From positions 69,294-113,342 of the forward strand of contig JAAYQZ010000040.1 of NCBI GenBank assembly GCA_012519025.1: DNA of 44,049 nt, read 5' to 3'. The notes under the pieces are model-generated. The model saw nothing but the letters and a program-made list of their open reading frames with translations, was not told where the DNA came from and made no database searches. Positions 13,442 to 43,360 of this stretch are shown here, piece by piece; the first letter of the stretch is position 1; the number at the start of each line of letters is the position of its first letter. This DNA comes from Bacillota bacterium. Lineage in GTDB: Bacteria > Bacillota > Limnochordia > DTU087. A program made the translations under genes and the position numbers.

Positions 13442-13447
13442 GCCCAG

Positions 13448-13879: not shown

Positions 13880-13889
13880 GCATTACACC

Positions 13890-15580: not shown

Positions 15581-16399
15581 GTGGAATATCATCTGCAAAG
15601 CCCTTGGAATCAGTACTTGAAACCGCCGTGGCCGGGGCGTCAACCAAAGCCGCGGCAAGGTGGGCTGACAATGATCATTGACAAGGGACTGGACTTAGAT
15701 ACTACCTTGCAGTGGCTTTCGTTAAATGCCGATCATGTGGATTTCGTCAAGTTGGGGTTCGGCACCGCCCCCTTATATCCAACAGAACAGCTTTTGAAAA
15801 AGATTTCACTGGTCAAATCTTTCGGTGTAGATATCTACCCCGGCGGTACTTTGCTGGAGATTGCTTTTCATCAAAAGCAAACAGAACCTTTTTTAGATCT
15901 CGTGCAGGAAATGGGGTTCACTTATGTCGAGGTCTCATCAGGTACCATTGAAATCGAGTCTAAAGCCAGGGAACAAATTATTACACAGGCCCAAACCTTG
16001 GGTCTTGGTGTCCTGACAGAAGTGGGCAAAAAAGACAACCACGCACCTTTTGACCCCAAAACCATTGCCCGCCAAATCGAAGCAGATCTCGCCTCCGGTG
16101 CCTATCAGGTCATAGTGGAGGCGCGGGAATCCGGACGCAGCATAGGTATCTATGACGCCACAGGCAGTGTGCGGGAAGGAGTGCTTCAGTCTATTTTGGA
16201 CCATACAACCCACCCCGAACACATCATGTGGGAGGCCCCCCAAGTGTTTCAGCAGCAAAAACTGCTGGCCAGATTGGGTCCCAACGCCAATCTCGGCAAC
16301 ATTCAACCCGGTGATGTGCTGGCTTTAGAGGCAACCCGTATCGGCATGCGCTCAGATACTTTTAGGTTAAGCATTCAGGAGGTGAGCAGTGATGGGTAG
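15581..16399 (+). CDS. comA: Phosphosulfolactate synthase (ComA family)
   Basis: TIM-barrel enzyme of 272 residues that adds sulfite to phosphoenolpyruvate, giving (R)-2-phospho-3-sulfolactate. Diagnostic stretches are MIIDKGLDLDTTLQWL, DFVKLGFGTAPLYP, DIYPGGTLLEIAFHQ, YVEVSSGTIEI and IMWEAPQVFQQQ. The route was found in methanogen coenzyme M synthesis. In Bacillus the homologue serves sulfolactate, an abundant spore compound. The start is GTG, with GGAGG 9 nt upstream. The next gene overlaps its stop by 8 nt. ComB phosphatase and the dehydrogenase are not in this window. Confidence 0.9.
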   Translation: MEYHLQSPWNQYLKPPWPGRQPKPRQGGLTMIIDKGLDLDTTLQWLSLNADHVDFVKLGFGTAPLYPTEQLLKKISLVKSFGVDIYPGGTLLEIAFHQKQTEPFLDLVQEMGFTYVEVSSGTIEIESKAREQIITQAQTLGLGVLTEVGKKDNHAPFDPKTIARQIEADLASGAYQVIVEARESGRSIGIYDATGSVREGVLQSILDHTTHPEHIMWEAPQVFQQQKLLARLGPNANLGNIQPGDVLALEATRIGMRSDTFRLSIQEVSSDG

Positions 16400-16493
16400 A
16401 AAACCCCTATCTTTAGAATGGGTGGCAGTGCTGGCAGCCTTAATGCTGGCGGCTTTGGTGAAATTTCAAGTAATCAGCCATGTCCCTTGGTAG
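16392..16493 (+). CDS. Unrecognised 33-residue single-span membrane peptide
   Basis: A short frame with an ATG at 16392 and a stop at 16493. It overlaps the comA stop by 8 nt and has a full AGGAGG 9 nt upstream, which suggests translational coupling. The protein begins MGRKPLSLEW, has one hydrophobic helix (about residues 8-25, rich in Ala, Leu and Val) and ends in HVPW. Positive residues at the N-terminus suggest that this end stays inside the cell. The YeiH-family transporter starts 34 nt later, so it may be a small partner of that transporter. I do not recognise a family. Confidence 0.6.
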   Translation: MGRKPLSLEWVAVLAALMLAALVKFQVISHVPW

Positions 16494-16527
16494 GGACCAC
16501 CTTTTTCGGTGCTGGAGGTAATGTGGT

Positions 16528-17577
16528 ATGAATCAATCGCTTCGCGACTCAAGTCACAAACAGTCAAATACCCTCACTGCCGCATTAGGCAAAGGTTTGA
16601 GGCTTGTGCCGGGGATTGGACTGTTGCTGTTCATCGGTATTTTGGGTAAGATCGCCACTGTTTACGTCCCCCATATGGAATATGTTATTTTCGCTATAGC
16701 ATTTGGTGCTTTGGCTGCCAACGTGCTCCCCGTCCATCGAGTGTTTGCTCCGGGCATACGTACCTATGATTTCTGGCTTAAAATAGGCATTGTGTTGATG
16801 GGTGCCAAATTTGCCATGACCAATGTGATCAGTATCGGCACTTCGGGAATCATTTTGGTTGTGGCCGAAATTGCGTTGGCGATCATCTCTGCCCGCTTCT
16901 TGGGTCGGCTGGCCGGCCTATCAGAAGAATTGAGCAGCCTATTGGGTGTCGGTATCGGTATTTGCGGTGTTTCAGCCATCATCGGCGCCACCGGTGCCAT
17001 CAACGCCCGTGAGGAGGATGCCAGCTATGCCATTGCTACCATTCTCATCTTTGGTGCGATTATGCTGGCAGTTTATCCTTTTATCGGCCATTGGGCCGGA
17101 ATGTCCCACGAAATGTACGGGTTTTGGACGGGATTGTCAATTGACAATACGGCAGAAGCCGTAGCCACCGGGATGGCTTTTTCTCCGGAAGCCGCGGAAG
17201 TAGCCACTGTCGTAAAACTTTCCCGCAATGCTTTGATGGGCTTTGTTATCCTGTTGTTTGCGTTAATCCACGCCAATCGCGGGTTGACTAAACATATTGA
17301 ACACAAATGGGCCTTCATCTGGTCCAGGTTTCCCAAATTCGTTTTGGGATTTCTGCTGCTTTCGGGCCTAAATACTGTAGGATTTTTTAATCCCGCCCAA
17401 ACCAAAGCTTTAGTTAACATATCTAATTGGGCGTTTTTGCTGACCTTCGCCGGGGTGGGCCTTTCACTGCAAAGATCCCGCCTTAAAGCAGGCTTTAAAC
17501 CGTTTATAGTAGGGTTTGGCGTGGAAACCATTGTGTCTGTAGTTACTTTTGCCATGGTTTATGTTTTGTTGAAATAA
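16528..17577 (+). CDS. YeiH/UPF0324-family membrane protein (putative sulfate/sulfonate exporter)
   Basis: Integral membrane protein of 349 residues with roughly ten helices, matching the family often annotated as putative sulfate exporter. Family stretches include DFWLKIGIVLMGAKF, LLGVGIGICGVSAIIGATGAI and SIDNTAEAVATGMAF. The repeated Gly-rich half-helices resemble a sodium/bile-acid-type two-repeat fold. The ATG at 16528 has GGAGG 9 nt upstream. It sits in an operon with phosphosulfolactate synthase and a small membrane peptide, so its cargo may be a sulfonate or excess sulfite/sulfate. The substrate is inferred from context only. Confidence 0.82.
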   Translation: MNQSLRDSSHKQSNTLTAALGKGLRLVPGIGLLLFIGILGKIATVYVPHMEYVIFAIAFGALAANVLPVHRVFAPGIRTYDFWLKIGIVLMGAKFAMTNVISIGTSGIILVVAEIALAIISARFLGRLAGLSEELSSLLGVGIGICGVSAIIGATGAINAREEDASYAIATILIFGAIMLAVYPFIGHWAGMSHEMYGFWTGLSIDNTAEAVATGMAFSPEAAEVATVVKLSRNALMGFVILLFALIHANRGLTKHIEHKWAFIWSRFPKFVLGFLLLSGLNTVGFFNPAQTKALVNISNWAFLLTFAGVGLSLQRSRLKAGFKPFIVGFGVETIVSVVTFAMVYVLLK

Positions 17578-17595
17578 CATAAAACACTAACTTAA

Positions 17596-17638
17596 CAGCG
17601 GCTCCCGGGTGTGTTGATCCGGAGCCGCTGCCGTTTTA
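17596..17638 (+). terminator. Intrinsic terminator after the YeiH-family gene
   Basis: A 10 bp stem CAGCGGCTCC (17596-17605) / GGAGCCGCTG (17621-17630) with a 15 nt loop, followed by CCGTTTTAT. It ends the comA-yeiH unit. Confidence 0.8.
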
Positions 17639-17707
17639 TAAAACAGCCCTACAATCCGCGGGCAAAACTGATGAATGGAAGCGGTATGACAAAGAGAGGA
17701 GGCGAAT

Positions 17708-17740
17708 ATGCTGTGTAGGGGTGGTAATGGTGTTTCATGA
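17708..17740 (+). CDS. Possible 10-codon leader peptide before the UPF0756 gene
   Basis: A strong AGGAGG is followed 5 nt later by ATG and ten codons (MLCRGGNGVS) ending in TGA at 17738-17740. It overlaps the start of the UPF0756 gene in another frame. It could be a leader that couples or tunes translation, or the AGGAGG could simply serve the longer gene poorly. There is no evidence that the peptide itself has a function. Confidence 0.3.
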   Translation: MLCRGGNGVS

Positions 17741-18179
17741 TCTTTGCTTGTTGGCGATGCTTTTTTTGGGAGTAGTCGGGAATAACTACCTTGTCTCTAT
17801 CTCGGCAGCCCTACTTTTGCTTCTTAGGCTGCTTGGCTTGAACGCCTTACTGCCCTATCTGGAAGGCCCGGGACTTAGAGTAGGCTTAACGCTTTTGATT
17901 CTTTCCATTCTAACTCCCTTTGCCCAAGGACACATCTCCTTGGATGACATTTGGGGAGCCGTGGCAAAACCCCGTGGTGCCACAGCCATCCTGGGCGGTA
18001 TAGCCGGAGCATATCTGGGAGCACGGGGTCTGGCTCTTCTAGATGCATACCCTGAAAGTATTACCGGTCTTGTCTTGGGCACTTTAATTGGCTCCACCTT
18101 TTTTAAAGGTATTCCCGTAGGCCCTTTAGTCGCGGCGGGTATGGCAGCCTTACTTGCAGATTTAATCCTGCGGTTTTAA
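17721..18179 (+). CDS. UPF0756 (DUF441) membrane protein
   Basis: Membrane protein of about 150 residues resembling the UPF0756/YtwI family, whose role is unknown. It has four or so hydrophobic helices, a conserved early Gly-Asn-Asn (GVVGNNYLVSISAALLLLLRL in part), LILSILTPFAQGHI, and AILGGIAGAYLGARG. The GTG at 17721 opens the frame, but the ATG at 17727 with AGGGG 5 nt upstream is equally possible. A terminator upstream makes it a separate unit from the YeiH gene. It converges on the RlpA-like gene with a 35 nt gap, in which no terminator was seen. Confidence 0.82.
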   Translation: MVMVFHDLCLLAMLFLGVVGNNYLVSISAALLLLLRLLGLNALLPYLEGPGLRVGLTLLILSILTPFAQGHISLDDIWGAVAKPRGATAILGGIAGAYLGARGLALLDAYPESITGLVLGTLIGSTFFKGIPVGPLVAAGMAALLADLILRF

Positions 18180-29681: not shown

Positions 29682-30278
29682 TTGATCAATTGGATCTGGT
29701 TTTTCTTTTTAGGAGGCGGCATTTTGCTTGCCGCAACAGCAAACAAAGGTGCAGAGGTAACTGCTGCGGTGTTGGCAGCTTCCCAAGACGGGATAACGCT
29801 TGTGATCGGTCTTGCGGGGCTTATGGCCTTTTGGGCGGGTTTGATGGAAATTGCCGAGGCATCCGGTTTGACTAAAGTGTTGGCCGGACTCTTGCGGCCA
29901 ATAACAAGCCGCCTGTTTCCCGACATTCCTCCAGATCATGAAGCCATGGGGGCGATTATTTTAAGTATGGCCGCCAATATTTTGGGTATCGGCAATGCTG
30001 CAACACCGTTGGGCATAAGAGCCATGGAGAAACTTGAAGAACTGAACAACAATCCCGGTACAGCCACAGATTCAATGTGTACTTTTGTGGCCATCACAAC
30101 CTCTTCTCTTACTATTATACCAGTAACAGTCATCGGCATGAGATTGGCAGCGGGTTCAGCAGCTCCTGCCGATATTATACCACCGACACTTATTGCCACG
30201 GGAGCATCTACACTGGCTGCTGTCATAATTGATCTGATGTGGCGCAAATTGGGTCAGCACAGCGGAGGACAAGAGTGA
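29682..30278 (+). CDS. spmA: Spore maturation protein A
   Basis: 198 residues, integral membrane protein of the nucleoside recognition (Gate) family. In Bacillus SpmA and SpmB are needed for full spore core dehydration. Landmarks are WFFFLGGGILLAATANKG, GLAGLMAFWAGLMEIAEASG, MAANILGIGNAATPLG and MCTFVAITTSSLTIIP. The start is TTG with GGGGGT about 6 nt upstream. The stop overlaps the spmB start by one nt. The 272 nt gap upstream carries both CtsR-like sites and the ctsR promoter; no clear SigA promoter for spmA was found. Confidence 0.93.
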   Translation: MINWIWFFFLGGGILLAATANKGAEVTAAVLAASQDGITLVIGLAGLMAFWAGLMEIAEASGLTKVLAGLLRPITSRLFPDIPPDHEAMGAIILSMAANILGIGNAATPLGIRAMEKLEELNNNPGTATDSMCTFVAITTSSLTIIPVTVIGMRLAAGSAAPADIIPPTLIATGASTLAAVIIDLMWRKLGQHSGGQE

Positions 30279-30823
30279 TGACCGTATTTTTGCAGGCAAT
30301 GGAGTCAATCGGCAGCTGGGCAATCCCCGCTGTGGTTCTATTCATCCCACTTTGGGGTTTGATCAAAGGTATAAAAGTCTATGAGGTATTCATTGAAGGA
30401 GCCAAGAAGGGGCTTGCCGCCACTTTGAGGATCACCCCTTACTTAATAGCTATGCTGGTTTCTATCCGAGTGTTTAACGCGGCTGGAGGTCTCGACATCT
30501 TGACCGAGGCTCTTGCGCCTATCAGCAAACGCCTAGCTATCCCCCAGGCGGTCATACCTATGTTCTTGATCCGCCCTCTTTCCGGTTCCGGAGCTTTGGC
30601 GATGCTGGGGGATATTCTGAAAACCCAAGGCCCCGATACGTTAGCAGGGTTCATGGCTTCGGTTGTGCAGGGAAGTACTGAAACAACCCTGTATGTGCTT
30701 ACAGTCTATTTTGGTGCTGTGAACGTTTTTCGAGTGCGCCGCTCTTTGACGATCGGCCTGTGGGCGGACCTTGTGGGATTTGTCGCGGCGGTTTGTGCGT
30801 GCAGTTGGTTCTTTAAGGGTTGA
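30278..30823 (+). CDS. spmB: Spore maturation protein B
   Basis: 181 residues from the ATG that overlaps the spmA stop (GGAGG 9 nt upstream). It is a Gate-family membrane protein like SpmA, with about four to five helices. Conserved stretches are IPLWGLIKGIKVYEVFIEGAK in part, LIRPLSGSGALAMLGD and VVQGSTETTLYVLTVYFGAV, the last with the family STETT motif. It acts with SpmA during spore maturation in the known family. Length is normal. Confidence 0.93.
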   Translation: MTVFLQAMESIGSWAIPAVVLFIPLWGLIKGIKVYEVFIEGAKKGLAATLRITPYLIAMLVSIRVFNAAGGLDILTEALAPISKRLAIPQAVIPMFLIRPLSGSGALAMLGDILKTQGPDTLAGFMASVVQGSTETTLYVLTVYFGAVNVFRVRRSLTIGLWADLVGFVAAVCACSWFFKG

Positions 30824-31075: not shown

Positions 31076-31972
31076 CTAAAACCCCATCTGTTTTCTTAAG
31101 TAGCTGCGGGCTTTAACAGCATATTCCAACGGTGGGGCAACAGCCGGATCTTGCTCTGCTTCAACCATGATCCAACCTTTGTAGGCTGCTTCATCTAAGG
31201 CCCGAATAACAGGGCCAAAATCAATCATGCCATCGCCGGGTACTGTAAATACCCCTTGCTTGACAGATTCCAGAAAACTCCAGCCCTCTTGAGACGACTG
31301 CTCCATGATGGATTTTCTTAGATCTTTAAAGTGAACATGCCTGATGCGTTTGCCAAAATCCTTCACCATCTGCACAGGGTCGCCACCGGCAAACACGATG
31401 TGACCGGTATCTAAAAGAAGATGAACCAACTTGGGATCTGACCGCTCCATCAATGTTTCCACTTCAGAATACGTTTGAACCCCTGTGCCCATATGATGGT
31501 GATATACAATCTGCATGTTCTTTGCCTGAGCCAAGCGCCCCAACTCTTCCAGCCCGTCAATGAGTTGATCCCACTCTACTGCGGTGAAACTCGGCTTGTT
31601 CCCGTGCAAAGCCACATCCATTCGGCCTTGAATTGATTTCCCCTGTTCTGAAACAACGATGACCTTTGCCCCGCAGGCATGCAGGAAATCTCGATGCTTG
31701 ACAAACGCATCAAAAGTTTCTTTGGGGGTTTTCGTGGTGAAAAAACTGCTGAACCAAGCACTGGCAATAGACAGCTTTAAAGGTTCTAAAGCTGCAAGCA
31801 GAGTTTTTGGGTCTTTGGGGTATTTGTTGCCTACTTCACAACCCTCGAATCCTGCCTTTGCCATTTCATAAATGCATTGTTCGAAAGGAATATCCCCACC
31901 AAGTTCCGGCATATCGTCATTTGTCCACGCAATAGGAGCGATCCCTAACCTCACTTCGCCTTTTTTAAACAT
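31076..31972 (-). CDS. iolE: Myo-inosose-2 dehydratase
   Basis: 298 residues from the chosen start, a xylose-isomerase-like TIM barrel. Known IolE dehydrates scyllo-inosose to the trihydroxycyclohexane-dione acted on by IolD. Landmarks are LGIAPIAWTNDDMPELGGD, GFEGCEVGNKYPKD, IVYHHHMGTGVQT, LLLDTGHIVFAGGDP, and RHVHFKD with metal-binding His/Asp. I chose the ATG at 31972 because AAGGAGG lies 7 nt upstream; the GTG at 31978 overlaps that site. It is the last gene of the seven-gene operon. Confidence 0.93.
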   Translation of the reverse strand: MFKKGEVRLGIAPIAWTNDDMPELGGDIPFEQCIYEMAKAGFEGCEVGNKYPKDPKTLLAALEPLKLSIASAWFSSFFTTKTPKETFDAFVKHRDFLHACGAKVIVVSEQGKSIQGRMDVALHGNKPSFTAVEWDQLIDGLEELGRLAQAKNMQIVYHHHMGTGVQTYSEVETLMERSDPKLVHLLLDTGHIVFAGGDPVQMVKDFGKRIRHVHFKDLRKSIMEQSSQEGWSFLESVKQGVFTVPGDGMIDFGPVIRALDEAAYKGWIMVEAEQDPAVAPPLEYAVKARSYLRKQMGF

Positions 31973-31990
31973 TTCCACACCTCCTTGATG

Positions 31991-33859
31991 CTACCAATCC
32001 CTTGCCTTTTGAGCCGCTTCCTCATGCTGGTTTCTAGCAGCCAGTGTTTCCGGGTTTTCGGAAACTTCTGCTGCTCCCACCCGCCAATAAGACTCATATC
32101 CGCCGGAATGAGTGCCTGGAACAACCTTGATATCGATCAAGGTTGCTGTTTTTTCTGCTTGGGCCTTTTCAATTACCCCCGACAAATCCTTTAAGTCTGT
32201 GACTGTATAGGCTTTGGCTCCCAAGCTTCTCGCAATTCCCGCAAAATCAATTGTCATATAATCTCCATCAAGCCTATCTGTTTGTGTGCGGTAGCGCAGT
32301 TCATTTCCAAATCCTTCCCGGCTGCCGTGCTCTTTTTGCAGAGACTGGATGCATTGAAAGCCTCCGTTATCAAACATGACTATAGTTATCTTTATATTTT
32401 CTTGAACAGCTGTCAAAAGCTCTGAATGGAGCATCAGAAAGCTACCGTCGCTGACCAATGCGTAGGCATCCATATCCGGTTCCGCCATTTTGGCTCCCAA
32501 AGCACCGGCAATCTCATATCCCATACAGGAAAACCCATATTCCATATGATAGGTATTTGGCCCCCTGCACCGCCAAAGTCTTTGTAAGTCCCCGGGTAAA
32601 CTGCCGGATGCAGCGACAATGATATCGTTTTCTGTCAGATGCTCGTTAACTGTACCCAATGCCGCTGTTTGCGTGATGCCGGCCTGGGATTCCAAGGTAT
32701 AGAGGCGATCGATTTCTCGATTCCATTTGTCTTTTAATCCTGCCAAATAACCGGACATATAGTCGCTTCTGTAACCTGTTGATTTGAGAGCTTCAGTCAG
32801 GGAAGCCAAAGCCAGTTTTGCATCTGCCGGTAAAAATGTGGAAGACATTTTATGTCCATCTAAAGCCGCTACATTAATATTTAAGATGTCAACAGCGGGA
32901 TTTTGAAAGGCAGTTTTGGAGGCTGTGGTGAAATCGGTTAAACGGGTACCAACAGCTATGATCAGATCGGCATCTCGAGCTAAACGATTGGCTGCAATTG
33001 TACCGGTTGCACCAATGCCCCCCATATTGAGAGGGTGCTCCCATGTTAACACGCTTTTCCCGGCCTGGGTCACAGTGATGGGAATATTGAAGGTTTCCGC
33101 AAATTCACTGAGCTCATCATGGGCCAGGGAATAACGGACACCGCCACCGGCAATTATCAGTGGGCGTTTTTTCCCTTGAAAAAGCTTGACGGCTCTTTCA
33201 AGGCTGGTTTTTGCCGCCGGCCTGCGATCAATGTGAAAAACGCGTTTGGCAAAGAACTCTTCCGGGTACGGGTATGCCTCCCCCTGCACATCTTGGGGCA
33301 AAGCCAGTGTTACTGCACCGGTTTCGGCAGGATCAGTCAAAACCCGCATGGCATTCAAAGCTGCACTCATCAACTGTTCGGGCCTTTGGATGCGATCCCA
33401 ATATTTACTTACAGCTTGGAATGAATCGTTAACTGTCACACCGTAACTGTGCGGCATTTCCAACTGCTGAAGCACTGGATCCGGCTGCCGATCGCTGAAG
33501 GTATCACCGGGCAAAAGCAGTACAGGTAGTCGATTGATTGTAGCAGTAGCCGCACCGGTGATCATATTGAGAGCCCCGGGGCCAATTGAGCTTGTGCAGG
33601 CCATGATACCTAGACGATGTTTTTGTTTTGCAAAAGCAGTCGCGGCGTGGACGGCACCTTGCTCATTGTGGGCTTGATAATATTTTAATGAAAGGTCTCC
33701 TACATTCTCCAATGCTTCCCCGATACCCAGCAGGTTGCCGTGGCCGAAAATGCCGTAGACTCCGTGTACAAATTTGTATTCTACACCATCCATCTCCACA
33801 TACTGTGCATCTAAAAACTTAAGCAGTGCCTGGGCAGTTGTCAATTTTATTCTACCCAC
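31991..33859 (-). CDS. iolD: THcHDO hydrolase IolD (thiamine diphosphate enzyme)
   Basis: 622 residues. It opens the cyclohexane-dione ring to 5-deoxy-D-glucuronate. The N-terminal ThDP domain has the catalytic Glu in YYQAHNEQGAVHAA. The central domain has IIAGGGVRYS and GIGATGTIAAN. The C-terminal ThDP-binding domain has ALVSDGSFLMLHSE and the downstream DNGGFQCIQSLQ. The start is GTG, overlapping the iolB end by 8 nt, with AGGGGG 7 nt upstream. Length and motifs match IolD, and the gene is intact. Confidence 0.95.
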   Translation of the reverse strand: MGRIKLTTAQALLKFLDAQYVEMDGVEYKFVHGVYGIFGHGNLLGIGEALENVGDLSLKYYQAHNEQGAVHAATAFAKQKHRLGIMACTSSIGPGALNMITGAATATINRLPVLLLPGDTFSDRQPDPVLQQLEMPHSYGVTVNDSFQAVSKYWDRIQRPEQLMSAALNAMRVLTDPAETGAVTLALPQDVQGEAYPYPEEFFAKRVFHIDRRPAAKTSLERAVKLFQGKKRPLIIAGGGVRYSLAHDELSEFAETFNIPITVTQAGKSVLTWEHPLNMGGIGATGTIAANRLARDADLIIAVGTRLTDFTTASKTAFQNPAVDILNINVAALDGHKMSSTFLPADAKLALASLTEALKSTGYRSDYMSGYLAGLKDKWNREIDRLYTLESQAGITQTAALGTVNEHLTENDIIVAASGSLPGDLQRLWRCRGPNTYHMEYGFSCMGYEIAGALGAKMAEPDMDAYALVSDGSFLMLHSELLTAVQENIKITIVMFDNGGFQCIQSLQKEHGSREGFGNELRYRTQTDRLDGDYMTIDFAGIARSLGAKAYTVTDLKDLSGVIEKAQAEKTATLIDIKVVPGTHSGGYESYWRVGAAEVSENPETLAARNQHEEAAQKARDW

Positions 33860-34658
33860 GCTTGTGCCCCCTTTCAGGAAAAATCACCGCATCCCGAGCC
33901 ATTACCCACTCATGTTCCGGAACAAATGTGGGTATTCCGTACGGTGCATCCTCCAGGTGTCTGATCACCCAAATATAGTACATTGCATAACCAGGAGCTG
34001 TTACTTGTGGGTGTATCCGACCATCTAATATTTTAACAGAATCGCGGTGGTTCACTACAAAAGCTTCATCCCCCACGATACTGACGCCGAACCCACCGCT
34101 TGGTAAGAATCGGTAGTGATAGATCTCCGGCTGAGGATGGTGATGAGGCGAGTAACTCGACCATTTGCCGGGGAAGTTGACGACCTCACCGACGACTAAG
34201 TTGGCATCTGGTGCATTGGTTTTATCAAAAACAGTCCTGACGATTCTTGTTGAAGTTTCCTGCATTGTGCCTTTGCCCCGTTCTTCACTTCTGACATCAG
34301 AAGTGCCGTAAAATTTGGGTGGGAAACTGCCTTTTTGGCTGGTGCGGGTGATATTCAGCTCTACATCGGTGTGTGCCGTAAGAGTAAGCTGTGTGTCGGG
34401 CGGCAAATGAAGACAGCTGGCATTTTCGTGGAATAAAGATTCGCGCTTTGCCCGAACTTTCTCTGATGCAAATTCGAAAGTGATGTCACCGCTCATAAGC
34501 AGATACGCACTCTCTTTGGGGCTTTTCTCTTGATAAGTTTCGCCGGCTTCTAGAATCAAAAATCCAAAATCCATCATGGTATTGGCATGTGCTTCATCTT
34601 CTGTCGCAACTGTTGTATAACCCCGTTTAAAGGGACCATCAGCTCTTAAGTGATACAC
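33852..34658 (-). CDS. iolB: 5-deoxy-glucuronate isomerase
   Basis: 268 residues, a bicupin that converts 5-deoxy-D-glucuronate into 2-deoxy-5-keto-D-gluconate. The second cupin carries the metal-binding YSPHHHPQPEIYHYRF segment, and LDGRIHPQVTAPGYAMYYIW (in part) follows, typical of IolB. The start is GTG with GGAGGG 6 nt upstream. It lies 47 nt after the LarA-family gene and is coupled to iolD. Its product normally goes to the kinase IolC, which is not in this window. Confidence 0.95.
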   Translation of the reverse strand: MYHLRADGPFKRGYTTVATEDEAHANTMMDFGFLILEAGETYQEKSPKESAYLLMSGDITFEFASEKVRAKRESLFHENASCLHLPPDTQLTLTAHTDVELNITRTSQKGSFPPKFYGTSDVRSEERGKGTMQETSTRIVRTVFDKTNAPDANLVVGEVVNFPGKWSSYSPHHHPQPEIYHYRFLPSGGFGVSIVGDEAFVVNHRDSVKILDGRIHPQVTAPGYAMYYIWVIRHLEDAPYGIPTFVPEHEWVMARDAVIFPERGHKRG

Positions 34659-34705
34659 GTTTGACCCTCCTGTTTCAAAAGATATTCAGCAGGACGATTA
34701 AATTG

Positions 34706-35971
34706 TCATTCTAACCGGCCGGTGTTTGAGGTTTTCACTTTAGGCAAAGTGGATGCGCCGTAAGGAAATATGCCGTAAAGAGGTTCACCGCCTAAAAGTG
34801 CAAATCCGGCCTTGACTGCCGATTCCACGTTTGGGTAAGACTTGATTCCAACCAGCCCGTCATCGGTGAGTGCGGATGCAAGTAAGATTTTGTGCCTGAG
34901 GGCGATTTTACCAATTGCTGCCGCCTTATGGCCTCCTAAGATGAATTTTTGTCTAAGATCGCTCAGCAAATCGTTTGGACTCTTACCCGATGTCATCCAC
35001 TGTTTAAAGGTTTCGTTGCCATATCCTTCGGAACACTCGGCAGCCAGGACTATTACACCCCCACTTCGCACGGCCCGGGCGCAGTTGTCCAACGCCTTTT
35101 GTGCTTGATACAGATTAATATCTTTGGGAGCCCCGCCGGGACTGACTATGGCCAAATCTAAGACTTGGGGCACATCCACGATACCGGTGTTTTCAAGATG
35201 CTCGCAAAGGAGGCGGTGGGCCTGTTTGCTGTTTCCTGCCGCAGCTTTTATAACTTTGTGATCTTCATCAACAATCACATTTAAAATAAAGTCCACTCCC
35301 ACCATTGCTGCCGCTTCTTCAAGATCTTGACGCACAGGGTTGTTTTGTAAGCTGCCTGCTGATGCCGCATGTTCCACCATGTGACTGTGATTTCTATTGA
35401 TTGTAAGGGGTGAGGCAACCCCGGGTATTAATGCTTTAACCCCACCGGAAAACCCGGCAAAATAGTGAAACTCTACATTGCCAACACAAATGCGAAAATC
35501 GGCCTTTTCCACGGGCTGAAACACTTCAACAGGTGTACCAAGCCGGGTGGAACCAACTCTTACCACTTTGTTGATGTCATGATTAACTACATTTACACGA
35601 TTGAATATTTCCTGACCTACAGAGTCCTTAAGCTCAGAGTCACTCATGGCCCGATGCAAACCCAAAGCTATCACCACGGTGATGTTTTCATCCGGCACAC
35701 CTCCAGCATTCAACCGATTCAGCACAGGCGGCAGCAGTACCGAGTTGGGGCAGGGCCTGGTGTTGTCGCTGGTGATGATCACAACCCCCATGGCGGGCGT
35801 TACTTTCTGCTCCAAGGGGAAAGACGCAATCGGGGCATCCAAGGCCCTTTCAATAAGTTCAGTTTCACTTGCATGGGGAGGAAGCGTTGTTGGCTGAAAT
35901 GTCCCCACATAGCCTTTTTCGGGAAGTTTGAGCCCAATATGTTTTTTACCATAAGGTAAAAATATCTCCAA
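34706..35971 (-). CDS. LarA-family nickel-pincer racemase/epimerase
   Basis: 421 residues, related to lactate racemase LarA, which uses a nickel-pincer nucleotide cofactor. Residues that matter in LarA are all present: Asp69 and Arg72 (SDNTRPCP), His106 (GLHR), His169 (EFHYFAGFSGG), the cofactor-attachment Lys179 (GGVKALIPG) and His195 (NRNHS). The substrate is unknown; the wider family racemises or epimerises several 2-hydroxy acids. LarB, LarC and LarE are not in this window. The start is TTG with GGAAGG 9 nt upstream. It begins 4 nt after the phosphoglycerate-kinase-like gene. Confidence 0.88.
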   Translation of the reverse strand: MEIFLPYGKKHIGLKLPEKGYVGTFQPTTLPPHASETELIERALDAPIASFPLEQKVTPAMGVVIITSDNTRPCPNSVLLPPVLNRLNAGGVPDENITVVIALGLHRAMSDSELKDSVGQEIFNRVNVVNHDINKVVRVGSTRLGTPVEVFQPVEKADFRICVGNVEFHYFAGFSGGVKALIPGVASPLTINRNHSHMVEHAASAGSLQNNPVRQDLEEAAAMVGVDFILNVIVDEDHKVIKAAAGNSKQAHRLLCEHLENTGIVDVPQVLDLAIVSPGGAPKDINLYQAQKALDNCARAVRSGGVIVLAAECSEGYGNETFKQWMTSGKSPNDLLSDLRQKFILGGHKAAAIGKIALRHKILLASALTDDGLVGIKSYPNVESAVKAGFALLGGEPLYGIFPYGASTLPKVKTSNTGRLE

Positions 35972-35975
35972 GTTG

Positions 35976-37235
35976 CTACACCTTCCTGTAGGCTTCTTTT
36001 AAAGCCTTAATCAGCGGCAGTTCCATCCCTGACAAATACCGCACCAATGCTCCGCCGGCAGTGCAAATGTAGCTGAAGCGGTTTTCGGCATCATCGACTA
36101 AAGAAACCGCCGCGTTAACACTGTCGCCTCCACCAACCACACTATATCCCGATGAATCAGCAGCGGCCTTCCATACTTCTTTAGTGCCCTGGGAAAATAA
36201 GGGGTCTTCATACACCCCCATAGGACCGTTGATAAAAATACTGCCCGCCTCATTTAGCATCCGGCGGTAAACCTGAATAGTCTTTTCCCCTATATCCATC
36301 AGCAGCCCGCAAGCTTTTAGCAAATCTTTGCTGTCAACCTCTCGACGCATTGGGCCGTCCCTAAAGGCAAAGTCTTTGGGATTGACAAAGCGGTCGCCGT
36401 AATCCCTTAAATACCTTTCGGCAGGCTTTAGAAAAGTACCCAAACCCCGTTCATACACAAAGCGTGTCTGTTCCCGGGAGAACTCCGTACCCCCGGCCAT
36501 GAGCATAACAATACCAAGCACACCTCCGGTCAATATTGAATCAGCGCTGCCGTTCTTTAATACCCCTTCAATCATGCCAAAAGCATCGGCTATTTTAAGT
36601 CCGCCCAGTACAAAAACCGCGGGGGAGGCAGGGGTTTTCATAATTTTCTCCAGGGCGCTAACTTCCTTGACAAGCTGCCGGCCTGCAGCAGTGGGCAGCA
36701 CTGCAGTAAACCCCACCATGGAGGGTGCGTTGCGATGAGCGGCTGAGAAAGCATCATTTACATAGTAATCGGCTAGGGGCGCCAGCCTGCGGATGAGATA
36801 GCATTCAGCCATCTCGGAAACCGATAAACTGACTGAGTCCTCAAAAGTTGATACTTCCTCGGTCAAATACCGTACATTACCCAATAGGACCGCTTCCCCC
36901 GGTTTTAGGGCTTGAACAGCGGCCTCAGCCGCGGGCCCAGCCGCATCGTCAATATAATCTATGTGCTGTCCCACCTTCTTGGACAGCTTTTGGGCATGTT
37001 CTGTTAGAGGAATCAAGTTGTGGTAATCTAAAGTATCGCCTTGGTGAGCCAAAAGGACAATTTTAGCCCCCTGCTCCAACAGCTCTTTGAGGGTAGGAAT
37101 GCTTTTATCCAAACGATTGTCGTTAACGATTGTTTTAGTTACCGGATCTAGGGGCGAATTTATATCCACCCGCAAGATCACGGTTTTATCACGATAACAG
37201 AAATCATCAAGGGTGTTGAACAAAGACTTTCGCAC
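35976..37235 (-). CDS. Archaeal-type phosphoglycerate kinase homologue with altered substrate site
   Basis: 419 residues, nearest by eye to archaeal PGK: LRVDINSPLDP, KIVLLAHQG, RRLAPLADYYVNDAFSAAHR and GPMGVYEDP. PGK moves phosphate between 1,3-bisphosphoglycerate and ADP. Arg22, Arg41, His64, Arg122, Arg168 and Lys214 are kept, but the HxGR motif is HQGD: the Arg that helps hold the 3-phosphoglycerate is Asp67. GGAK is also GGLK. The start is GTG with a poly-G site 10 nt upstream. It follows the type II GAPDH gene by 7 nt, so the two surely work together. Confidence 0.85.
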   Translation of the reverse strand: MRKSLFNTLDDFCYRDKTVILRVDINSPLDPVTKTIVNDNRLDKSIPTLKELLEQGAKIVLLAHQGDTLDYHNLIPLTEHAQKLSKKVGQHIDYIDDAAGPAAEAAVQALKPGEAVLLGNVRYLTEEVSTFEDSVSLSVSEMAECYLIRRLAPLADYYVNDAFSAAHRNAPSMVGFTAVLPTAAGRQLVKEVSALEKIMKTPASPAVFVLGGLKIADAFGMIEGVLKNGSADSILTGGVLGIVMLMAGGTEFSREQTRFVYERGLGTFLKPAERYLRDYGDRFVNPKDFAFRDGPMRREVDSKDLLKACGLLMDIGEKTIQVYRRMLNEAGSIFINGPMGVYEDPLFSQGTKEVWKAAADSSGYSVVGGGDSVNAAVSLVDDAENRFSYICTAGGALVRYLSGMELPLIKALKEAYRKV

Positions 37236-37242
37236 AGGGCGA

Positions 37243-38259
37243 CTACCCCCCCAGTTTCAGATAGCGGTTTGTCAGACAAACTGCTTCATCGCCATCGGAT
37301 TGCATCGACATACTGGCCCGGATCCCATCAATAGTCTCGGGGATTACGACTGCTTCCTGCGGAATATTTACTACGAATATGATCTGGCCTTCAAAAACTG
37401 TGACAGTCTCATCCCACACAGCGATTTCATACATGTCCCCCCTGGGGTTGCCCAAATCTCTGGCATAGCGAAACAAGGAAGCATTGCCCAAAAACCCATC
37501 TTCGATGCGCACTACTTTAATTCTCGGATGGGCTCTAAATAAATCCACAATTTCTTGTTTTGTAGTCTCACGCTTCGGTTTTGCTATCACTGTAATCACA
37601 TGCCCATGGGTAACGGGGGTATGCACAAGTGTACCGGTGGCTTTTATGTCCGGCATGATAAGCATTAGATCCTCGGCTTGATGATTTGGTACTGGTTCAA
37701 CCTCTAAAGCATTGGTCAAACCGCGGTGGTAATCTCCCGGATCTGCCACCCGTCTGACTATGGTAATAATCACATTTTCGATGCCCATTGCTCGATGCAG
37801 GCAGTCCACAGCCCGGATTAGGCCCGTTGTGTTGCATGATGTGAGCTTTAAAAACTGTCGGTCAAGGCCGGCGTCATAGTTGGCATATCCGTGAAAAAAC
37901 ACATCGGCTACGCTCGTCTTTTCGCCTCCTTGGAAGATGGCTCGTTTACCATACTCAGCATAAAGCTTTTTGTTTTGCTCGCCCACTCCAGCGCTGGTAG
38001 CGTCTAAAATGATGTCGCATTTTTGCACAAGGTCCGGCAGACTTCCCGATACAGGAACATCGTATCGAGCCAGCTCATTTTCACCTTCTGGGAGTGCTAA
38101 ATAAAAATCATAAGGCATGCCTTTTTCTTTAAGAGCCTGTACAGCTAGGGTTGGGCCTACATCGCTCACACCGATGAGTTCCATGTCTTTTTGTAAAGCC
38201 ACCCCATCTGCCAATCTTTGACCAATTACACCGTAGCCCACAACACCAACTCTAACCAC
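37243..38259 (-). CDS. Archaeal-type (type II) glyceraldehyde-3-phosphate dehydrogenase homologue
   Basis: 338 residues. The N-terminal Rossmann motif is GVVGYGVIGQRLADGV. The archaeal catalytic motif SCNTTGL carries Cys142, and IFQGGEK, IVRRVADPGD and the His218-x-His220 pair match the archaeal enzyme class. Bacterial GAPDH has SCTTN instead. The enzyme class oxidises an aldehyde phosphate to an acyl phosphate with NAD(P). The start is GTG with AGGGGG just upstream. It sits between the FGGY kinase and the PGK homologue. A substrate other than glyceraldehyde 3-phosphate is possible. Confidence 0.87.
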   Translation of the reverse strand: MVRVGVVGYGVIGQRLADGVALQKDMELIGVSDVGPTLAVQALKEKGMPYDFYLALPEGENELARYDVPVSGSLPDLVQKCDIILDATSAGVGEQNKKLYAEYGKRAIFQGGEKTSVADVFFHGYANYDAGLDRQFLKLTSCNTTGLIRAVDCLHRAMGIENVIITIVRRVADPGDYHRGLTNALEVEPVPNHQAEDLMLIMPDIKATGTLVHTPVTHGHVITVIAKPKRETTKQEIVDLFRAHPRIKVVRIEDGFLGNASLFRYARDLGNPRGDMYEIAVWDETVTVFEGQIIFVVNIPQEAVVIPETIDGIRASMSMQSDGDEAVCLTNRYLKLGG

Positions 38260-38289
38260 TGCTCCCCCTCCTTTAATTCACCTGGGTAT

Positions 38290-40032
38290 TTAGATAAACT
38301 GCCCCTGTGTTCTTTTTTGTTCCCGTACACTGTCTCTAAGATCCAAAAGATCCTTCATGATGTTGTAAAGGCTTTGGGCATATGTTGTTGTACCAAAAGC
38401 ATCGTGAAGCTGCTTATATATGATATACAGCTTCCTGTAAGCCTCAACATTGGCCGGAATCGGCGCAAATTCTATGTCTTTAAGTCCTCCCATAGCCACC
38501 TGGGCTTCTTGAACACGGTTATAGCCCCCCATATCTGGACCTGCGGCTGTCGCGGCGAACATAGCGGCACCTAATGCCGGTGTCTGAGCGGATCTGGAGA
38601 TTTTCATCGTGCGGTTGGTAACATCAGCGTAGATCTGCATCAACATGGCATTCTTTTCGGCGATACCACCGCAGTTCACTACTTCCTCAATGTGGACACC
38701 GTATTCCTCCAACCGATCTATAATCACTTTTGCCCCAAAGGCTGTGCCCTCAATCAAAGCCCGATATACTTCCCAAGGTGTAGTTTGCAGAGTCTGACCA
38801 ACTAAAAGGCCGCTTAAACGCACATCCACAAGTACAGTGCGGTTGCCGTTGTTCCAATCTAAAGCCATAAGTCCGCTTTCTCCCGGCAGCAGCTTTTTGG
38901 CTTTGCTCGTTAGAAACTCATGTATATCCTGCCCTTTTGCCTTTGCTTCTTCGTAACAGCTGCCCGGAACTGAGTGTTTTACGAACCAATTGAATATATC
39001 TCCAACAGCTGATTGACCTGCTTCCAGACCGATGTAACCCGGCAAAACGGAGCCATCGACTATTCCACATACGCCGGGTACATCGGGTAAACCTGTGGCC
39101 TTTGGAGCAACAGCTATATCACATGTCGATGTCCCGATAATCTTCACTAGGGTACCTTCCTTTACACCGGCACCCACCGCGCCCATGTGGGCATCAAATG
39201 CCCCGATACTAACGGCGATACCCGGTTTTAAACCCAACCGCTCTGCCCATTTTGGGGTGAGGCCCCCGGCCTTTTGACCGGCAGTATAGCTCACATTGGG
39301 TAAAGCTCTGCGTATGAGCCCCAGTCGGGGTTCTAAGGCAGTTAAATATTCCCCATCAGGGTATCCCGACCAATCGGCACTAAACATACCTTTATGGCCC
39401 GCGGCACATATGCTCCGTTTAAGTACATGTGGTGCCAATGTACCTGTCAAAAGTCCAGGAATAAAGTCTGCTAATTCCACCCATGTGTAGGCGGCGTTAA
39501 ATACCTCAGGATCCACCCGCAGGCAGTGCCAAATTTTGGACCAAAACCACTCAGATGAATAAGCACCACCACACTTAGCTAGGAAGTGGGGCCTCATGTC
39601 ACGGGCTTTGTCGGTGATCGCCTCCGCTTCCTCAAATGATGTATGATCTTTCCATAGCCAGGCCATGGCATTGGGGTTGTTGGTAAATTTCTGGCTGAGT
39701 CCAAGGGGTACTCCTTCCTCATCTACAGGTATAGGGGTACTGCCGGTGGTATCCACACCGATCCCAATGATGCTGTCCTTGTTGAAACCTTTTACATTTT
39801 CTGTTGCAGCTGCGATTGCTTTTTTTCCCGCCTTCTGCAGTCCCTCTATGTAATCTTTTGGGTCCTGGCGGGCCAAAGTAGGATCAAGTGAATCGGTAAT
39901 TACCCCATCAACACCGGCTTCATAGCTGTAGACACCGGTCCCAACCTCCTCCCCAGTGGCAATATCTACAACCAATGCTCTCACTGAGTTGGTGCCGTAA
40001 TCAAACCCAAGGGTAAAACGGCGGACAGCCAT
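38290..40032 (-). CDS. FGGY-family carbohydrate kinase, ribulokinase (AraB) type
   Basis: 580 residues from the chosen start, the long AraB-type FGGY kinase. The N-terminal phosphate-1 loop is FDYGTNSVRALVVD. Then come GIGVDTTGSTPIPVD, LWKDHTSFEEA, GGAYSSEWFWSKIWH and, near the C-terminus, VNCGGIAEKNAMLMQIYADV (in part). AraB phosphorylates ribulose, but there is no araA or araD here, so another ketose or polyol is possible. I chose the ATG at 40032 because GGAAGG lies 8 nt upstream. It is the first gene of the operon. Confidence 0.88.
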   Translation of the reverse strand: MAVRRFTLGFDYGTNSVRALVVDIATGEEVGTGVYSYEAGVDGVITDSLDPTLARQDPKDYIEGLQKAGKKAIAAATENVKGFNKDSIIGIGVDTTGSTPIPVDEEGVPLGLSQKFTNNPNAMAWLWKDHTSFEEAEAITDKARDMRPHFLAKCGGAYSSEWFWSKIWHCLRVDPEVFNAAYTWVELADFIPGLLTGTLAPHVLKRSICAAGHKGMFSADWSGYPDGEYLTALEPRLGLIRRALPNVSYTAGQKAGGLTPKWAERLGLKPGIAVSIGAFDAHMGAVGAGVKEGTLVKIIGTSTCDIAVAPKATGLPDVPGVCGIVDGSVLPGYIGLEAGQSAVGDIFNWFVKHSVPGSCYEEAKAKGQDIHEFLTSKAKKLLPGESGLMALDWNNGNRTVLVDVRLSGLLVGQTLQTTPWEVYRALIEGTAFGAKVIIDRLEEYGVHIEEVVNCGGIAEKNAMLMQIYADVTNRTMKISRSAQTPALGAAMFAATAAGPDMGGYNRVQEAQVAMGGLKDIEFAPIPANVEAYRKLYIIYKQLHDAFGTTTYAQSLYNIMKDLLDLRDSVREQKRTQGQFI

Positions 40033-40132
40033 GACAATCACCTTCCTAGTAATTAAATTGTGTAGTTGCTCTTCGGCATCAATTTCATAATCGTTTCCCT
40101 AACAATGTTATTCGGAAAGTAATGCAGATCAC

Positions 40133-40334: not shown

Positions 40335-41114
40335 ATGGGAGTTATATATACGATCGGCAATCAAAAAGGCGGTGTTGGGAAAACAACGACAACACTCAAC
40401 CTCGGCGCGGCATTAGTAGAGCTTGGGTGCCGAGTGCTGCTTGTGGATCTTGATCCACAGGGGGGACTTACGATATCGTGCGGACAGGAACCGGACGCAT
40501 TGGATAAAACTGTTTATACAGCTTTGCGCCGCTCTGTGAGTGGAAGACCTTTTGTTATTTCCACACCATTTGGTGCCGATTTGCTGCCGGCTAACGTGGA
40601 TTTGGCATTGGCGGAAATGGAACTGGTTGGTGCTATGGCCCGGGAGCGCAGATTGGCCGCGGTGCTGGCTCCCATCCGCGATGATTATGACATTGTTCTC
40701 ATCGACTCACAGCCGTCCCTAGGGCTGCTGACTATAAATGCACTAGCCGTAAGCGATTATTTGTTGGTTCCTGTTGCCTGTGAATATTTGGCACATAAAG
40801 CGGTCAGAGGGCTGCTGCGATTGGTTAAAAAAGTCCAGGTGAATTACAATGGCCAGCTGAAAGTTGCAGGACTGCTTCCCACTATGTGCGACCGCAGAAC
40901 TTTGCACGCCGCCAGTGTCATTGAAGAACTGCACAGCACTTTTGAACCAGAAATTCGGGTGTATGAATATATTGTCTACCGCAGCATTCGCTTTGCTGAA
41001 TCTGCAGAGGCGGCGGAACCTATTATATATTTTGCCCGCAACATTCCCGGTGCAGATGCCTATCGGGAACTGGCAAAAGAGATATTTTGGAGCCTTGATC
41101 AGGCTACTGGCTAA
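40335..41114 (+). CDS. ParA/Soj-family ATPase (orphan)
   Basis: 259 residues. The deviant Walker A motif is QKGGVGKTTTTLNLGAAL, followed by LLVDLDPQGG and the Walker B-like IVLIDSQPSLGLLTINAL. The family dimerises on DNA with ATP and moves chromosomes, plasmids or large protein complexes. A partner ParB is not adjacent: the next gene converges on it. A GGGAG lies 11 nt before the ATG. It may be the chromosomal Soj of another locus or position a surface or polar machine. Its stop overlaps the opposing gene's stop by 4 nt. Confidence 0.9.
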   Translation: MGVIYTIGNQKGGVGKTTTTLNLGAALVELGCRVLLVDLDPQGGLTISCGQEPDALDKTVYTALRRSVSGRPFVISTPFGADLLPANVDLALAEMELVGAMARERRLAAVLAPIRDDYDIVLIDSQPSLGLLTINALAVSDYLLVPVACEYLAHKAVRGLLRLVKKVQVNYNGQLKVAGLLPTMCDRRTLHAASVIEELHSTFEPEIRVYEYIVYRSIRFAESAEAAEPIIYFARNIPGADAYRELAKEIFWSLDQATG

Positions 41115-43360
41115 CACTTAGGCTGTGCTTCCCGCCGCTCTTCCAAAATTAAATTGAGAATCAGACCGGCAGCATAAACACTGGTGGTACCTCCGGCTAC
41201 AACCCCTGAGTCATTGAAAATTAAAGCCATAATGCTGGCTGCTATGGTGCAGAAGACAAGATTGCGTGCCGCCGGATATTTCTTAAGGACACTTTGCACT
41301 ACCGCCGTCGGTCTATAGACAGACAGTGCCATTACCCCCAAAGCAACTAACAGTCCCTTGCTCCACATACTGTAGCGCATCAAACGAAAGTTCATGGCTG
41401 CTTTTCTCTCCACTAAAGCAAGTATTGAAGGCCAATCACCCGTAAGTACTGCCTTAAGAGCCCGGCCCACATGGGAGCCGATTCCGCCTATGGGCAAAAC
41501 ATTCAGGCCCAGCACTGCTGCAAGCAGCAGTCCACCGGTGATTGCGATTTTGCCTGGGGAAATGTTGTAAGTCAAGGCCCAAACTATGATTGTAGTTATC
41601 AATGCAGTAAGCATGCCGCCGGCGTTGGCCCCAAAATTTGGCATTGCTAAAACAAAAGTGATAACAGGCAGCCACATGAGCACCAAGAAATTGTGGGTCA
41701 AGTGATGGGTGGCGACAAGAACAGCCACAAGGGAAGCACCGATTAAAATCCCCATATATTCATTGCCGATCCCGTAGAAGCGGGCTCCCAGCATAACATC
41801 GTAACCTAAAGGTGACAACTTGATGAGCGAGCCACCGAACAGGGCATCAATAACTACAGCTAGAGCGGTCAGGCCGCAGATAAACGCATAACGAATTTCC
41901 GTATCCTCGATAAAATGCTGCACAAATCCCGTGATCAAGGAGGCGGCAGCCAATGTATATACAAATGATTGGCTGATAGTGGCAGGTTTCAGCGCAGGGA
42001 TAAATAGCAAAGCCAGCGGTATCGATGCGATCAACAAAAGAGCAAAAGAAAAGAAACTCACCCACAACTTGGGCAGGGTGACAAAAAAGATTACTAAACC
42101 AAACACAGTCAGGTATACAGCTATTTCTAAGCTGACAAACGCCCTAAGCAGGGGAGGTCTTTGCTGATATGTCCAGCCGCTTCGCTGCAGCAAATCCCCG
42201 AGATATGATTGTCTATCCCCGACATTCTCTACGCCGATGATGGAGGCACCGGGCAGGTGGGTTGGCGGTTTTACATTCAACCATTCCAGTATTGTGTAGG
42301 CAATATCATAGTTGGCAATTACGCCCCGACGCCGCGTGGTGGAACTGACCAAAAGGCCGGGAGAGATGTTGGGACCCCACACGGCTACTGGAGCCAAAAG
42401 TCTCCCTTCGACAACCTCTGTGTACGCCGGCAGCGGGCTTACTACTAACAGCCATTCTGTAGTTAGATCTATTTCTTCCATGATGTGCCGGAAGAGCTCA
42501 TCTGCATCAGCAAGTGCCTGATGCCTGTAGCTGTGGTACAATTTGGGGGCAAGTTGGCGGCGCTCTTCCTCTATCCTATCCAGATCACCAAAATCCACCA
42601 CGATAAAATCGGACATAGCTCGAACAGCAGCATAAGCGTTGGCCAGAGCCTGGACATCAGTGCGTTCACCTGTGGGGAATCGGGGATCTCTTGTTGTAAG
42701 ATCCTGCATACAACTGACAGGCACAATACCTTCGGCATCCATGGCCACAAGCGCCCCCCACCGCTGGTATTGGCTGCCGTTATCTGCATGCCCAACCACC
42801 GCAGCGTTCTTCCCCGCTTTTTTAAGGGTCTCCCCCAGTGTTCCTACCTGCAACGTTCCTATTGATGCAAGATTATTGGCTTTAATGTTTTCAATATCAA
42901 GGACAACTAGGGCATCGGCGGAAGCATCTAAACCGGTGTATCTTCGGTACACATCCCCTACAACTTCACCTTTGTATTCAGAACCGGCAGGTAAGGCGAC
43001 TTGGCAAGCGGCACTGCCGACCATTCTCAATCCGGCTCCTAAGGTCACAAAAGCATTTTCCGCAGTTAATCCACCACCTGTGCGGGTGTTTTGAAGCCCT
43101 ATGCTGCCCTGCCGGATCATCTGCCCCAAGTAGGAGTTTTCCCTTCCCAAAAGATCATCCAATGACAATCGGTTAATAAGCACCAGCGTCACCTTGGGAT
43201 GCCCGCTTTCCTTTGATGAAAGACCCACTGAATAGGCAAATATCTCGGTATCCATGAAAAACATGCACAATAAAAGCAAGCCACAAATCACATAGGATTT
43301 GGCGATCCCAGAAGTCGGCAGCGACTCCCTGTTTGTGTTTCCCTTTGGCAACACCACCAA
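41111..43360 (-). CDS. Large membrane protein with alkaline-phosphatase-like extracellular domain
   Basis: 749 residues. One N-terminal helix (about residues 20-42), then about 350 outer residues that resemble the alkaline phosphatase/sulfatase/phosphoglyceromutase superfamily: VTLVLINRLSLDDLL, GHADNGSQYQRW, TEWLLVVSPLP and ANYDIAYTILEWLNV, but few metal ligands can be named with confidence. The rest is about 11 membrane helices, with FYGIGNEYMGILIG in the middle. The start is probably GTG at 43360, with weak ribosome binding. It lies 17 nt after a glycosyltransferase gene, so a surface-polymer role is likely. The function is not known. Confidence 0.7.
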   Translation of the reverse strand: MVVLPKGNTNRESLPTSGIAKSYVICGLLLLCMFFMDTEIFAYSVGLSSKESGHPKVTLVLINRLSLDDLLGRENSYLGQMIRQGSIGLQNTRTGGGLTAENAFVTLGAGLRMVGSAACQVALPAGSEYKGEVVGDVYRRYTGLDASADALVVLDIENIKANNLASIGTLQVGTLGETLKKAGKNAAVVGHADNGSQYQRWGALVAMDAEGIVPVSCMQDLTTRDPRFPTGERTDVQALANAYAAVRAMSDFIVVDFGDLDRIEEERRQLAPKLYHSYRHQALADADELFRHIMEEIDLTTEWLLVVSPLPAYTEVVEGRLLAPVAVWGPNISPGLLVSSTTRRRGVIANYDIAYTILEWLNVKPPTHLPGASIIGVENVGDRQSYLGDLLQRSGWTYQQRPPLLRAFVSLEIAVYLTVFGLVIFFVTLPKLWVSFFSFALLLIASIPLALLFIPALKPATISQSFVYTLAAASLITGFVQHFIEDTEIRYAFICGLTALAVVIDALFGGSLIKLSPLGYDVMLGARFYGIGNEYMGILIGASLVAVLVATHHLTHNFLVLMWLPVITFVLAMPNFGANAGGMLTALITTIIVWALTYNISPGKIAITGGLLLAAVLGLNVLPIGGIGSHVGRALKAVLTGDWPSILALVERKAAMNFRLMRYSMWSKGLLVALGVMALSVYRPTAVVQSVLKKYPAARNLVFCTIAASIMALIFNDSGVVAGGTTSVYAAGLILNLILEERREAQPKC

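Follow-up and report, generated by a model that had tools for sequence, protein, structure and literature searches.

A conserved inositol gene cluster with GAPDH- and PGK-like enzymes in Bacillota and other phyla, best read as a route from 2-deoxy-5-keto-D-gluconate to D-malate

The locus and its gene families

The window, a stretch of 44,049 nucleotides from a draft Bacillota genome (2.4 Mb, 165 contigs, 98.6% complete), contains seven open reading frames on the minus strand between positions 31076 and 40041. The first gene in the direction of transcription encodes an AraB/L-ribulokinase-type FGGY kinase of 583 amino acids (38290–40041), which passes both curated L-ribulokinase cut-offs (NF003154, 681 bits, cut-off 428; TIGR01234, 602.7 bits, cut-off 583) and matches ribulokinase 3qdk best in the PDB (E 6e-150). 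It is followed by gapII (37243–38259), encoding a homologue of archaeal-type (type II) GAPDH (NF003251, 388 bits, cut-off 185; TIGR01546, 283 bits, cut-off 233), and by the gene for a PGK-like kinase (35976–37235; Pfam PGK PF00162, 337 bits, cut-off 27). Further downstream are genes for a LarA homologue of the malate-racemase type (34706–35971; Lar_N, 219.5 bits, cut-off 23.3), a divergent IolB-like isomerase (33852–34658; Pfam KduI/IolB, 189 bits, cut-off 23.9), the trihydroxycyclohexane-1,2-dione hydrolase IolD (31991–33859; TIGR04377, 907 bits, cut-off 715) and the inosose dehydratase IolE (31076–31978; TIGR04379, 412.7 bits, cut-off 290; PDB 3cny, an IolE, E 5e-76).

The intergenic gaps from the kinase gene to iolE are 30, 7, 4, 47, -8 and 12 nt. 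A preliminary description of this DNA had listed the same seven same-strand genes and the same first five gaps, but gave 18 nt for the last one, a value that varies with the IolE start chosen. The gene families that it named were also recovered, except that the IolB-like protein misses the equivalog cut-off of TIGR04378 (99.8 versus 205 bits, as does the Carboxydocella copy with 98.1 bits) and that LarA is closest to malate and not to lactate racemases. In scans for promoters and terminators, sites were no more numerous than in shuffled sequence, and the limits of the operon therefore rest on spacing and conservation.

To one side of the window lie rpoBC-type housekeeping genes together with clpC/mcsB; a ParA gene lies to the other. 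Two neighbouring Gate-domain proteins (PF07670) encoded at 29682–30823 (plus strand) resemble the spore maturation proteins SpmA/SpmB, suggesting a spore former. The plus strand at 15581–18179 encodes a ComA phosphosulfolactate synthase (PF02679, 275 bits) and, after it, a membrane protein of family PF03601 and a DUF441 protein, a possible sulfolactate-related module. A 749-aa protein without a Pfam match is encoded at 41111–43360 (minus strand); it has a counterpart in a sister genome (L014, 1463–3808), and ParA adjoins both copies.

All steps of the upper branch of inositol degradation seem to be represented in the window genome, where an IolG orthologue is encoded on a separate contig (C121; 67% identity to a protein that scores 485 bits with TIGR04380, cut-off 355). 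The IolB-like isomerase is proposed to convert 5-deoxy-D-glucuronate to 2-deoxy-5-keto-D-gluconate (DKG). For the lower branch, the best IolC candidate of the window genome reaches 126.7 bits versus a cut-off of 300, and a search for the dehydrogenase MMSDH/IolA gave no match at E<=1e-60 in this genome. Among 23 cluster-bearing genomes, IolC exceeds its curated cut-off in one (Clostridium ganghwense) and MMSDH/IolA likewise in one.

Conservation of the gene set

Of 397 other genomes sampled from the phylum, 8 contained gapII at E <= 1e-20. When GTDB genomes were scanned, 477 stretches encoding a GapII relative were retrieved, the best 80 of which were analysed; because these loci were picked by similarity to the GapII clade of the window, the counts describe that clade. 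In 79 of these best 80 loci, pgk is the next gene after gapII on the same strand, with a median gap of 33 nt as measured between match ends. The order is kept across several phyla, the hosts being named as Bacillota, Thermotogae, Spirochaetes, Chloroflexi/Anaerolineaceae and Atribacteria (metagenome-assembled genomes or isolates); a lone match in an archaeal metagenome-assembled genome may be a binning error. This order and the recurrence of the wider gene set argue against a chance cluster.

Half of the best 80 runs (40/80) contain iolB, iolD or iolE. Where an iol-linked run has 9 kb or more of sequence on each side (22 runs), a split transketolase (tktN) is found in 21, larA in 18 (and thus not in 4) and a malic enzyme gene in 7. 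Carboxydocella thermautotrophica (L058) carries a run of ABC importer-gapII-pgk-tktN-tktC-iolB-iolD-iolE-iolG-larA. Within the order of the window species, gapII and iolD occur together in 6 of 12 genomes and are both missing from the other 6; in 2 of the 6 gapII-bearing genomes (L011, L013), larA and iolB are separated by two transketolase halves. The preliminary description had treated all seven genes as one unit. Six of them form a conserved module, while the kinase gene is a local addition.

The kinase gene adjoins gapII in only 4 of the best 80 loci, all from the family of the window species, which speaks against its proposed membership of the pathway. In sister genomes it still adjoins ParA, but other genes separate it from gapII (an opposite-strand ABC importer in L011; different genes in L010, L012 and L014), so that the adjacency in the window looks local. 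L-arabinose isomerase (PF02610) was absent from the window genome and from every other genome of its family, and L-arabinose use by the kinase was rejected for this reason. A role as a substitute for IolC was likewise rejected, as the kinase is not conserved outside one family. It is therefore regarded as a peripheral, lineage-specific neighbour with an uncertain role in the route.

The remaining 40 of the best 80 loci contain gapII-pgk runs without iol genes, although some of these contigs are truncated. The preliminary description would have given up its reading if the kinase, GAPDH, PGK and LarA genes occurred in relatives without iol genes and were expressed separately; the gapII-pgk runs without iol genes correspond to this in part. 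Canonical GAPDH and PGK were found in addition in all 31 GapII-bearing genomes tested, including those without iol genes beside gapII-pgk. Since every tested genome without an iol run has the canonical enzymes, gapII-pgk looks there like a module re-used elsewhere and not like the glycolytic enzymes of the cell. The window genome has another, canonical pair as well, in agreement with the earlier suggestion that the module is separate from central glycolysis, and the opposite possibility, that GapII and the PGK-like kinase are the only such enzymes of the cell, is contradicted by all 31 genomes.

In gut-type Bacillota that also possess canonical GAPDH and PGK (L080, L083, L091, L104, L111), the stretch around the GapII-PGK pair contains no iol genes. 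In Clostridium magnum and two further Bacillota (L064, L028, L029), genes for an acetoin-dehydrogenase-type E1-E2(-E3) complex adjoin gapII-pgk-larA-malic enzyme, again without iol genes. One locus (L027) encodes the 3-dehydro-scyllo-inosose hydrolase IolN at 13393–14388 (553 bits, cut-off 245) together with transketolase, GapII, PGK and LarA, and another (L031, 5046–6011) shows a similar arrangement with IolN or a relative, perhaps representing a second inositol variant. The existence of the E1-E2(-E3) and IolN variants suggests a re-usable module.

Residues of GapII, the PGK-like kinase, LarA and the transketolase

GapII keeps the catalytic Cys142 and His220, the equivalent of archaeal His219, but many of its fixed positions carry residues that none of the four solved archaeal enzymes has. 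All 81 relatives contain Asp33, which is Lys in the four solved archaeal enzymes, Gln194 in place of His and His218 in place of Leu; His213 is found in 80 of the 81. GapII thereby lacks Lys33 and the second His of the SHH motif, both common to the solved archaeal GAPDHs. Asp33 suggests that NAD is used in place of NADP, and GapII is proposed to be a phosphorylating, NAD-dependent D-malate-semialdehyde dehydrogenase.

The PGK-like kinase retains the equivalents of Asp23, Asn25, Arg38, His62, Arg122 and Arg170 in all 76 sequences compared. The equivalent of Arg65, which in PGK structures contacts the 3-phosphate of 3-phosphoglycerate, is lost in all 76, its place being taken by Asp (69 sequences), Ser (6) or Gly (1). 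All three canonical PGKs compared have Arg at this position, and the solved archaeal PGK of P. horikoshii (2cun) has Lys. The enzyme is proposed to act as an ATP-forming D-malyl-phosphate:ADP phosphotransferase.

The best NCBIfam match of the window LarA is the malate racemase LarAH6 (NF052593), with 470 bits and thus 30 below the cut-off of 500; when six operon LarA proteins were scored, four of them, all from relatives, passed it (537, 583, 592 and 599 bits). The best PDB match is the racemase Mar2 (6d6z, E 2e-96). The catalytic Asp, His, His and Lys and the equivalents of Mar2 Tyr172, Gln293 and Lys351 are present in 43 of 43 sequences; the Tyr, Gln and Lys line the malate pocket of Mar2, for which the roles of the catalytic residues have also been described (PMC7583248). 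LarC, required for the nickel cofactor of LarA, was found in 20 of 23 genomes, including the window genome, and not in the other three. LarA is proposed, from these residues and its family, to convert D-malate to L-malate. What malate racemases do in vivo was listed by their discoverers as an open question (PMC7583248).

The TktC half of the operon transketolase carries the motif DPG..(Y/F)NGGTH, versus HAG..EDGGSH in housekeeping copies of the same genomes, which amounts to the changes His to Asp and Asp to Asn. The affected positions are those of the phosphate-contacting His and a hydroxyl-contacting Asp in transketolase structures. Asp in place of the phosphate-binding His is not an obvious ligand for a carboxylate, which counts against the route proposed below. 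The operon-type transketolase was not found in the 165-contig window assembly or in three sister genomes. The window genome contains only other split transketolases of 42–44% identity on contigs C88 and C139, one of which is cut off by a contig end; in this species the step must fall to an ordinary transketolase or to a different enzyme. Three elements outside the view of the preliminary description, namely the split transketolase and malic enzyme of the relatives and the malate-racemase type of LarA, together suggest the chemistry of the route.

A proposed route via D-malate semialdehyde

The best explanation for the gene content and order, their conservation, the enzyme families, the residue changes, the second canonical GAPDH and PGK and the rarity of IolC and IolA is a variant myo-inositol route, most of it encoded in the window, that leads via DKG, transketolase, GapII, PGK and LarA to L-malate. 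We consider this reading probable, including the replacement of IolC, IolJ and IolA, the kinase, aldolase and dehydrogenase of the classical lower branch. The sub-threshold IolB and LarA scores in the window, the long-flank iol runs without larA, the genomes without LarC and the lack of the operon-type transketolase in the window genome and three sisters weigh against it. The earlier suggestion that inositol is degraded by a variant route, with a module of its own for oxidation and substrate-level phosphorylation, is supported: the genome has a further, canonical pair, and gapII and iolD share one pattern of presence and absence across 12 genomes of the order.

In this route, myo-inositol would be converted to DKG by IolG, IolE, IolD and the IolB-like isomerase. 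In its ketose form, CH2OH-CO-CHOH(left)-CHOH(right)-CH2-COO(-), DKG displays the D-threo 3',4' pattern of D-xylulose-5-phosphate, with CH2-COO(-) replacing CH2-O-PO3(2-). A transketolase could then shift the C2 unit of DKG to an acceptor and release D-malate semialdehyde, CHO-CHOH(right)-CH2-COO(-), the carboxylate isostere of D-glyceraldehyde-3-phosphate. With phosphate, GapII would oxidize it to D-malyl-phosphate, the isostere of 1,3-bisphosphoglycerate, from which the PGK-like kinase would form D-malate and ATP. LarA would racemise D-malate to L-malate, and malic enzyme would yield pyruvate. The D configuration of the malate was derived by hand from the known configuration of DKG, without adjustment to the racemase; a racemase is needed because the stereochemistry predicts D-malate. 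The substrates from the transketolase onward, the C2 acceptor and the transketolase acting in the window species are all deduced from gene anatomy.

A conventional role of GapII and PGK as extra glycolytic enzymes, processing triose phosphate from a normal iol pathway with IolC and IolJ, would agree with the curated type II GAPDH cut-offs passed by GapII, with its catalytic Cys and His and with the gapII-pgk pairs that lack iol genes. It is nevertheless improbable, and was rejected, as canonical GAPDH and PGK coexist in every genome tested and the phosphate-binding Arg of PGK is lost in all 76 sequences; IolC and IolA each exceed their cut-offs in a single genome of 23, and the transketolase, malate racemase and malic enzyme would be left unexplained. 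A scheme without transketolase, in which the kinase replaces IolC, an aldolase forms DHAP and malonate semialdehyde, and GapII-PGK yields malonate and ATP, is very improbable. The 30-nt distance between the kinase gene and gapII in the window and the absence of an arabinose isomerase that could supply ribulose are in line with it, but the kinase is absent from iol runs beyond the family of the window species and a transketolase accompanies 21 of the 22 long-flank runs. Moreover, malonate semialdehyde has no chiral centre, and LarA would therefore be idle.

For the genus of the window species, a further reading keeps D-malate semialdehyde as the intermediate and assigns the C2 cut to a housekeeping transketolase or a phosphoketolase, while the kinase would trap a ketose product or act on some unrelated sugar. 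It is a serious possibility, although one that falls somewhat short of even chances: the window genome retains GapII, PGK, LarA and all iol genes and lacks the operon-type transketolase while having other split copies on C88 and C139, but in an assembly of 165 contigs the gene may have been missed. This reading modifies the route via DKG and D-malate for one lineage and is not opposed to it. The substrate of GapII-PGK may also not be D-malate semialdehyde alone, because the pairs occur without iol genes as well. More tentatively, GapII and the PGK-like kinase might serve generally as a second pay-off module of the glycolytic kind, acting on carboxylate isosteres of triose phosphate and combined with varied front ends in which a keto-sugar acid is cut next to its ketone. 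These would be transketolase acting on DKG, leading to D-malate; transketolase following an IolN-type inositol hydrolase, possibly leading to tartrate; and the acetoin-dehydrogenase-like E1-E2-E3 complex of Clostridium magnum and its relatives.

In the open-access literature searched, no paper was found that describes the route, be it under this gene combination, transketolase with DKG or malate semialdehyde with transketolase. The cluster is real and conserved and is best read as an apparently undescribed inositol route from DKG to D-malate through transketolase, GapII, PGK and LarA, with the kinase as a peripheral gene. If the route is correct, anaerobes of several phyla possess a further pathway for inositol, a carbon source very common in plants and soil, and obtain ATP at a stage at which the classical route consumes it. 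GAPDH and PGK, which form the central energy-yielding step of glycolysis, would have a natural counterpart acting on non-phosphorylated sugar acids, malate racemases would gain a concrete in vivo role, and the annotation of such genes as GAPDH and PGK would be misleading.

The classical pathway (IolG-E-D-B-C-J-A) shares with the proposed route the steps to DKG, catalysed by IolG, IolE and IolD (the latter two above their cut-offs) and an IolB-like protein, but the window genome has neither IolC nor IolA above cut-off. DKG would be cut by a transketolase to a C4 aldehyde and not by an aldolase to C3 units, with ATP as a product and not as a cost. The inositol route of Thermotoga maritima (IolG-IolN-IolO) is likewise an alternative, and IolN also occurs beside the gapII-pgk-larA-tkt set in L027; however, the window lacks IolN and uses IolE, IolD and IolB, and the products differ. 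Transketolase pathways for other sugars likewise place the enzyme in a catabolic operon, but use phosphorylated sugars. The window LarA has the catalytic residues and the malate-pocket Gln and Lys of LarAH6/Mar2, whereas its score lies 30 bits under the curated cut-off and its pathway context predicts D-malate as input. GapII and the PGK-like kinase resemble archaeal type II GAPDH and PGK of glycolysis in fold family and catalytic residues and in the sequence of steps, with an acyl phosphate formed first and ATP second, but GapII has exchanged many otherwise fixed residues, the kinase is devoid of the 3-phosphate Arg, and the canonical enzymes coexist with both. Synthetic chemistry with malyl-phosphate and malate semialdehyde has been established for 2,4-dihydroxybutyrate engineering with an altered aspartate kinase and aspartate-semialdehyde dehydrogenase. 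The same carboxylate analogues would be used here, but in a natural route with enzymes of the GAPDH and PGK type.
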